64,000 nucleotides of DNA from contig JALQBC010000007.1 of assembly GCA_023375675.1 (NCBI GenBank), forward strand, positions 682,001 through 746,000, written 5' to 3'. How positions within the stretch are numbered: the first letter of the stretch is position 1; the number at the start of each line of letters is the position of its first letter. The position numbers and the translations under genes are program-made. Source of the stretch: Cytospora piceicola. Lineage: Eukaryota > Ascomycota > Sordariomycetes > Diaporthales > Cytosporaceae. The notes below the pieces were generated by a model. That model worked only from the letters and a program-made list of their open reading frames with translations, was not told where the DNA came from and did not search any database. Shown piece after piece: positions 182 through 426 of the stretch.

Positions 182-189
182 AAAAAAAA
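182..189 (-). terminator. Pol III T-tract terminator of U6
   Basis: Eight consecutive T on the minus strand immediately after the U6 3' stem, the standard Pol III termination signal. Confidence 0.85.
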
Positions 190-242
190 TTGGTAGCTTC
201 TCTTTGATTGAGCGTGTCATCCTTAGTGCAGGGGCCATGCTA

Positions 243-302
243 CTGTGAGATTTGTCAGTATTCGGACTGACTTGAACTCTCGACCTTGGTAGCGGAACCT
301 AC
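243..302 (-). other. U6 intron 2 (spliceosomal type, 60 nt)
   Basis: Starts GTAGGT, has ATACTGACAA as branch-point region (CTGAC) and ends CTCACAG. Removing it restores AGAAGATTAGCATGG, invariant in U6. It sits just 3' of the ACAGAGA box, the region where the S. pombe U6 intron is also found. It contains GTTCAAGTC (277-269), a match to the Pol III B-box core GWTCRANNC. Confidence 0.9.
269..277 (-). promoter_or_regulatory. Candidate Pol III B box inside U6 intron 2
   Basis: GTTCAAGTC matches GWTCRANNC. In S. pombe the U6 B box is also intronic, which supports the assignment. Confidence 0.6.
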
Positions 303-330
303 ATCTTCTCTGTATCGTTTCAAATTGACC

Positions 331-383
331 CTTGTAGAATATTAGTAATTGTAACCAGACGCGTTACGGTTGAGCCAACTTAC
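331..383 (-). other. U6 intron 1 (spliceosomal type, 53 nt)
   Basis: Reads GTAAGT at the 5' end, has TTACTAAT as branch-point candidate (ACTAAT fits RCTRAY) about 15 nt before the end, and finishes CTACAAG. Removing it joins CATTT to GGTCAATTTG, giving the canonical TTTGGTCAATTTG of fungal U6. The acceptor is AAG rather than the usual CAG or TAG. The insert contains TGGCTCAACCG (377-367), an exact fit to the Pol III A-box consensus TRGYNNARNNG. Confidence 0.85.
367..377 (-). promoter_or_regulatory. Candidate Pol III A box inside U6 intron 1
   Basis: TGGCTCAACCG fits TRGYNNARNNG at every constrained position. It lies 6 nt inside intron 1 and about 100 nt upstream of the B-box candidate, a workable TFIIIC spacing. 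The function is inferred from motif and position. Confidence 0.55.
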
Positions 384-419
384 AAATGCCCGAAGGCAAA
401 GTAGATTGGCAAACACCCG

Positions 420-426
420 CTTATAC
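420..426 (-). promoter_or_regulatory. TATA box of the U6 gene
   Basis: GGTATAAGC on the minus strand, about 25 nt upstream of the presumed U6 start, the usual TATA position for a Pol III U6 promoter. Confidence 0.6.

Follow-up and report, generated by a model that had tools for sequence, protein, structure and literature searches.

U6 is normally a Pol III product, and the Pol II snRNA genes of fungi have RNase III hairpins of the Rnt1/Pac1 type at their 3' side. In the basidiomycete Rhodotorula hasegawae, the U1 and U5 genes bear introns. Multi-intron U6 genes of fungi were reportedly described by Canzler et al. in 2016 (RNA Biol 13:119), as passages citing that work indicate. U6 introns are known from many fungi; passages of PMC7827515 also document them, including genes with more than one, and a review table lists a 'U6 snRNA promoter with 1st intron' for Trichoderma reesei (PMC9518982). 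The U6 gene of Schizosaccharomyces pombe contains one mRNA-type intron (excerpt of PMC5832005), and the U2 gene of R. hasegawae also has an intron (excerpt of PMC2586383).

We analysed a 64,000-nt stretch of DNA from a filamentous ascomycete, here called the window, together with the assembly holding it (43,645,921 bases, 99 contigs). The window contains a U6 gene with two inserts (U6a; C68:682182-682397), and a second, intronless U6 (U6b) was found on another contig. With several apparent spliceosomal introns in one gene, U6a resembles the multi-intron genes of Canzler et al.; the intronless paralogue with Pol II-type flanks is a difference from those genes, as far as the citing passages describe them. 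T. reesei, whose U6 is cited with a '1st intron' in the review, is a Sordariomycete. The S. pombe gene shares the mRNA-type intron, whereas the genome studied here has two introns in U6a and an intronless second U6. R. hasegawae is similar to our divergent U1 copy (U1b) in having spliceosomal introns in conserved parts of non-U6 snRNA genes, but that fungus is a basidiomycete, and in the ascomycete studied here U1 and U6 each have an intronless counterpart as well. The two-intron U6a adds a member to the known group of intron-bearing fungal U6 genes; the initial annotation had regarded two introns in one ascomycete U6 as unusual, which the several-intron genes already in print (passages of PMC7827515) contradict. 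Our search of mainly open-access literature, with the survey of Canzler et al. represented by passages citing it, found no fungal Pol II-type U6 and no ascomycete U1 intron, which is weak evidence of absence.

The U6 gene of the window and its two inserts

A cmscan of the whole window detected U6 as the only RNA family above cut-off. The Rfam U6 model (RF00026) matched U6a at 353-185 (−) with 55.9 bits (gathering score 44) on the unspliced sequence. In this alignment the first ~20 positions were forced onto intron 1, the true 5' exon lying upstream, and a long insert, the second one, was required after ACAGAGAAGAU. Direct reading of the strand gave the following features:

420..425, minus strand: TATA box TATAAG, at −28 from the U6a 5' end, a Pol III-type spacing
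384..397, minus strand: U6a exon 1, GCCTTCGGGCATTT; 5' stem-loop GCC-UUCG-GGC plus AUUU
331..383, minus strand: putative intron 1 of U6a, 53 nt; GTAAGT ... TACTAAT (347-341) ... CAAG
303..330, minus strand: U6a exon 2, GGTCAATTTGAAACGATACAGAGAAGAT, containing the ACAGAGA box
243..302, minus strand: putative intron 2 of U6a, 60 nt; GTAGGT ... TACTGAC (260-254) ... CACAG
268..278, minus strand: B-box match AGTTCAAGTCA (core GTTCRANNC), within intron 2 of U6a, at +120
190..242, minus strand: U6a exon 3; AGC, internal stem-loop, U4-pairing region and 3' tail
182..189, minus strand: T8, a Pol III-type terminator sequence of U6a

The initial annotation had placed a U6 in three exons on the minus strand, which the model score above cut-off and the strand reading confirmed; its junctions, 384/330 and 303/242, are exactly the exon ends found here, and its placement of the second intron directly after ACAGAGAAGAT was supported. 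Without the inserts, the ACAGAGA box, the AGC, the internal stem-loop sequence and the U4-pairing region are all intact, and a U4/U6 cofold of U6a with the U4 copy U4a gave −39.8 kcal/mol. An exact 23-base U6 pattern had no match in collections of viral and genome contigs. The neighbours of U6a, judged by eye, include genes resembling those for the electron-transfer flavoprotein beta subunit and the carbamoyl-phosphate synthase small chain (L005:6258-6944 (−) and L005:2015-3073 (−)).

Each insert has a 5' splice site, a branch site and a terminal AG, and its removal restores normal U6, as had been claimed. The exon-joined U6a aligned end to end with the intronless U6b of the same assembly, so the insertion points are fixed independently (insert 2 exactly, insert 1 within one base). 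We examined stretches of the window on both strands for a start of GT[AG]NG[TGA], an AG end and YTRAY near the end. This signal set occurred at 6 of 127,894 positions for a length of 53 nt and at 4 of 127,880 for 60 nt; it is too rare for chance to account for a pair of inserts of this kind at precisely these U6 positions. We infer that the U6a inserts are spliceosomal introns of the mRNA type. Across the window, 25 intron-like signals were counted where shuffles gave 14; their lengths do not peak sharply, and this excess is not informative. TTTT is absent from both introns, but it is also absent from 81% of random 113-nt stretches, so the lack of TTTT is no evidence. Intron 2 (302-243 (−)) folded with a z of −2.03, 6 of 200 shuffles being as good, and its branch site ACUGAC was predicted to form a hairpin with GUCAGU, overlapping the B box.

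The upstream region of U6a has its TATA at −28 and no pyrimidine tract (pyrimidine fraction 0.50). The B-box core GTTCRANNC near U6a was the only match in the 700 nt scanned, with ~0.09 expected from the window rate of 0.125 per kb of strand. The motif is short, and AGTTCAAGTCA in intron 2 is a possible Pol III internal promoter element. As a matter of sequence, the TATA near −30, the B box and the T run expected of a Pol III U6 promoter are all present. Frendewey et al. are said to have reported in 1990 a B-box match within the Schizosaccharomyces U6 intron; that of U6a is likewise intronic.

A second, intronless U6 with Pol II-type flanks

The initial annotation had proposed a genome search with RF00026 for an intronless U6. 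The search of the assembly returned two loci, U6a and an intronless copy, U6b (C63:24720-24818 (−), 84.8 bits). No third locus was found with exon-3 and exon-2 patterns (up to 3 mismatches), which had 2 matches each in the 43.6-Mb assembly. The spliceosome need therefore not depend wholly on spliced U6: the earlier statement that it must splice its own catalytic RNA would hold for U6a, with its two introns, but is weakened by U6b. As for the suggestion that an intronless copy accounting for all U6 would make U6a a pseudogene, such a copy exists, but U6a is no obvious pseudogene, having the usual core where U6b has two changes.

U6b is identical to spliced U6a along most of the RNA. A C-G to U-A change in the 5' stem is compensated and keeps the pairing; further differences are a single base following the 5' stem, and the 3' tail. 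The core contains two G-to-A substitutions, AACGAU to AACAAU and GAAGAU to GAAAAU. In U6a, the GAU beside the ACAGAGA box was predicted to pair with a segment that is identical in all four U2 copies. The second core change of U6b removes the end pair of the predicted U2/U6 helix Ia, and the predicted pairing with U2 was −7.1 kcal/mol for U6a versus −5.5 for U6b. The U6b RNA ends in T9. Unlike the U1, U2 and U4 genes, U6b has no AATTTTTGR-like Sm site in its 99-nt sequence. To our knowledge U6 never has one, and we therefore assign U6b to the U6 family, placed in the cassette of the Pol II class, and not to the Sm-class snRNAs.

We lined up the flanks of the U1 (2), U2 (4), U4 (2), U3 (2), U5 (1) and U6 (2) genes. 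Nine of the ten U1/U2/U4/U3 genes have a TATA that starts 52-61 nt upstream of the RNA and a pyrimidine fraction of 0.78-0.90 over the last 40 nt before it; in the tenth, the divergent U4 copy U4b, the upstream scan found no TATA and the fraction is 0.70. The element AAGGCGGC lies upstream of five of these ten genes and GGCGGC upstream of three others, while neither was found upstream of U4b and the U3 copy U3a. The upstream signature is thus not universal, since U4b lacks both TATA and element and U3a lacks the element. U6b has its TATA at −62, one base beyond the range of the other genes, a last-40-nt pyrimidine fraction of 0.93, and the element (GGAAGGCGGCC / AAGGCGGC) at about −135. The longer word GAAGGCGGC occurred once in the 64-kb window, counting both strands.

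All ten U1/U2/U4/U3 genes carry a hairpin within ~30 nt 3' of the RNA, with a consensus stem of 18 pairs, 8 of which show changes on both sides among the ten genes. A covariance model of these ten hairpins (R1), trained with U6b left out, matched the 3' flank of U6b (L001:1502-1455 (−), contig C63) with 44.2 bits and an E of 1.9e-8. This was the lowest of 11 matches, the training members scoring 50.4-63.9 bits. With E values of up to 1 allowed, the 114,822 bases searched, U6a, U5 and the rest of the window among them, gave no other new match; with E up to 5 allowed, 26 further loci totalling 78,351 bases gave none. The U6b hairpin starts from the terminal T run of the RNA and has 18 bp, all standard pairs; its fold of −17.1 kcal/mol (z −4.45) was equalled by 0 of 200 shuffles. 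Folding gave no hairpin in the 3' flank of U6a. A plain hairpin pattern had six matches assembly-wide, of which five fall at U2/U4 genes; the sixth (C48) is not a recognised gene, and R1 scored nothing there. The reversed pattern matched once. From what is established for fungal Pol II snRNA genes, the hairpin looks like an RNase III (Rnt1/Pac1-type) 3'-end signal; such genes have it just 3' of the RNA, and here it also stands behind a U6. As the U6b body lies between a Pol II snRNA/U3 promoter and this hairpin, Pol II most probably transcribes U6b.

Divergent copies of other spliceosomal RNA genes

The sole U5 found (L012, C5:513104-513215 (−)) has its TATA at −28, a T6 at +139 and an Sm site of variant sequence, AATCTTTGG, and lacks both the pyrimidine tract and the 3' hairpin; by these features it looks like the U6a class and not the Pol II class. 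An intron-split main U5 was not found, with one Rfam match and zero loop-plus-Sm pattern matches. A 12-base U5 loop pattern occurred at 25 places, of which only the known U5 looked U5-like by eye.

U1b (C16:47152-47309 (−)) scored 28.4 bits, under the Rfam cut-off, as did U1a with 52.6 bits; U4b was also below its gathering cut-off. In U1b, ATACTT is followed by a 61-nt insert, GTATGT...TGCTAAC...TTCTAG, and then by ACCTTGTC. The insert (L014:1713-1653 (−), C16) interrupts the sequence that recognises 5' splice sites (ATACTT/ACCT), and deleting the 61 nt restores the U1 5' end ATACTTACCTTGTC. These signals suggest an intron of spliceosomal type, which would be spliced. U1b has double changes at 18/46 and 20/44 that preserve the pairing of stem I, retains the loop GATCAAGAA as well as CATTGCAC and AATTTTTG, and has Pol II-type flanks. 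With gapped pairs set aside, U1b, U2b and U4b kept 5, 8 and 4 pairs through double changes relative to U1a, U2a and U4a, and lost 4, 4 and 3; five of the eight in U2b (149-153) look like a one-base alignment shift, leaving 3 sound ones. The verdict on whether the divergent copies are dead or alive is mixed, and U1b and U2b are probably under constraint. Divergent U2 (L009, C27) and U4 (L011, C79) copies carry the 3' hairpin. The two U3 genes (L019, C22; L020, C27) differ at 10 of 279 places; no large insert was found in them, both matching the full model, while U3 genes often bear introns in fungi (excerpt of PMC5832005).

We rejected the idea that U1b, U2b, U4b and U6b form a second, orthogonal spliceosome. 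All four U2 copies share one sequence in the segment opposite U6, which leaves the U6b change without a partner change in U2. With U4a, the two U6 copies pair equally well (−40.0 kcal/mol for U6b, −39.8 for U6a), and pairing with U4b is weaker for both (−29.8 and −29.6 kcal/mol). Finally, there is a single Prp8. Its closest match was chain 9l5r_A, with 2,899 bits versus 2,216 for the S. pombe protein; we take 9l5r to be a Chaetomium structure. This agrees with a filamentous ascomycete as the source, perhaps one of the Sordariomycetes.

Origin and use of the two U6 genes

The reading that we favour, at a probability of about 0.8, is that U6a is a Pol III-type gene whose transcript would be spliced twice and that the intronless U6b would be expressed from a Pol II-type cassette; polymerase use, splicing, RNase III processing and use of both RNAs are read here from gene features. 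In this filamentous ascomycete, U6a would serve as the standard U6 gene. Pol III would transcribe it up to the T8, using the TATA at −28 and the B box in its own intron 2, and two ordinary spliceosomal splicing events would convert the transcript into U6. U6b would supply some U6 without splicing, or it would be a little-used variant. It may be little used or decaying, given that it has the lowest R1 score, a T9 able to end a Pol III transcript and two G-to-A core changes.

It is scarcely credible that the inserts of U6a are not introns and that the transcript stays whole or is cut differently, since each insert has the full set of three mRNA-type signals, an exact U6 is left once the two are removed, and the known precedent, in S. 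pombe, is spliceosomal (excerpt of PMC5832005). A disused U6a, with all U6 coming from U6b, would fit the intronless, nearly whole core of U6b and its better Rfam score (84.8 versus 55.9 bits). U6b scores higher because nearly all of its core is kept, and the inserts depress the score of U6a. Against disuse, the core of U6a is the usual one, including the U2-pairing GAU, while that of U6b has two substitutions, and the TATA, splice signals and terminator of U6a are all in order; we consider disuse of U6a quite improbable.

U6b might also be a dead retrocopy, derived from spliced U6 and inserted by accident amid snRNA-like flanks, or a Pol III product in spite of them. Both introns are exactly absent from it, as in a retrocopy, and the terminal T9 and the two core substitutions also speak for this explanation. 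Nevertheless, both flanks are right and correctly spaced, with the TATA at −62, a pyrimidine tract reaching the 5' end and the hairpin starting from the T run. After an accidental insertion, traces of a host RNA should remain, but only U6 lies between promoter and hairpin, and the hairpin and 5' stem of U6b are paired unbroken. A hairpin past the T9 would be useless to a Pol III transcript. We judge this explanation unlikely, though it deserves some weight. Contamination with a second fungus as the source of U6b, U1b, U2b and U4b would explain why several snRNAs have one divergent copy and why U6b lies on a small contig (C63, 145 kb). It is contradicted by the single PROCN (Prp8) gene and single U5, by the composition of C63 near U6b compared with the window (trinucleotide cosine 0.9975; GC 0.54 versus 0.56), by the location of U2b on C27 together with a U3 gene that differs from the other at the 10 places noted above, and by the promoter element and hairpin that U6b shares with U1a/U2. 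A foreign origin is thus very improbable. Around U6b, C63 encodes Mid1 and SMAP-family proteins.

Returning to the favoured reading, of a twice-spliced U6a and a Pol II-type U6b, we tentatively suggest that one genome may use two routes to U6, one Pol III-type with an intronic B box and finished by the spliceosome, the other intronless and in the Pol II/RNase III pathway, with U1 divided likewise into an intronless U1a and an intron-bearing U1b. The intronless copies might then start the spliceosome that completes the intron-bearing ones, so that snRNA levels would be set by splicing in a self-regulating loop. If U6b is indeed expressed from a Pol II snRNA cassette, it would provide a test of how much U6 function owes to the usual transcription, cap and 3' end of this RNA, and the presence of intron-bearing and intronless U6 and U1 in one genome would open to experiment the old puzzle of how the spliceosome can rely on RNAs that it must itself splice.
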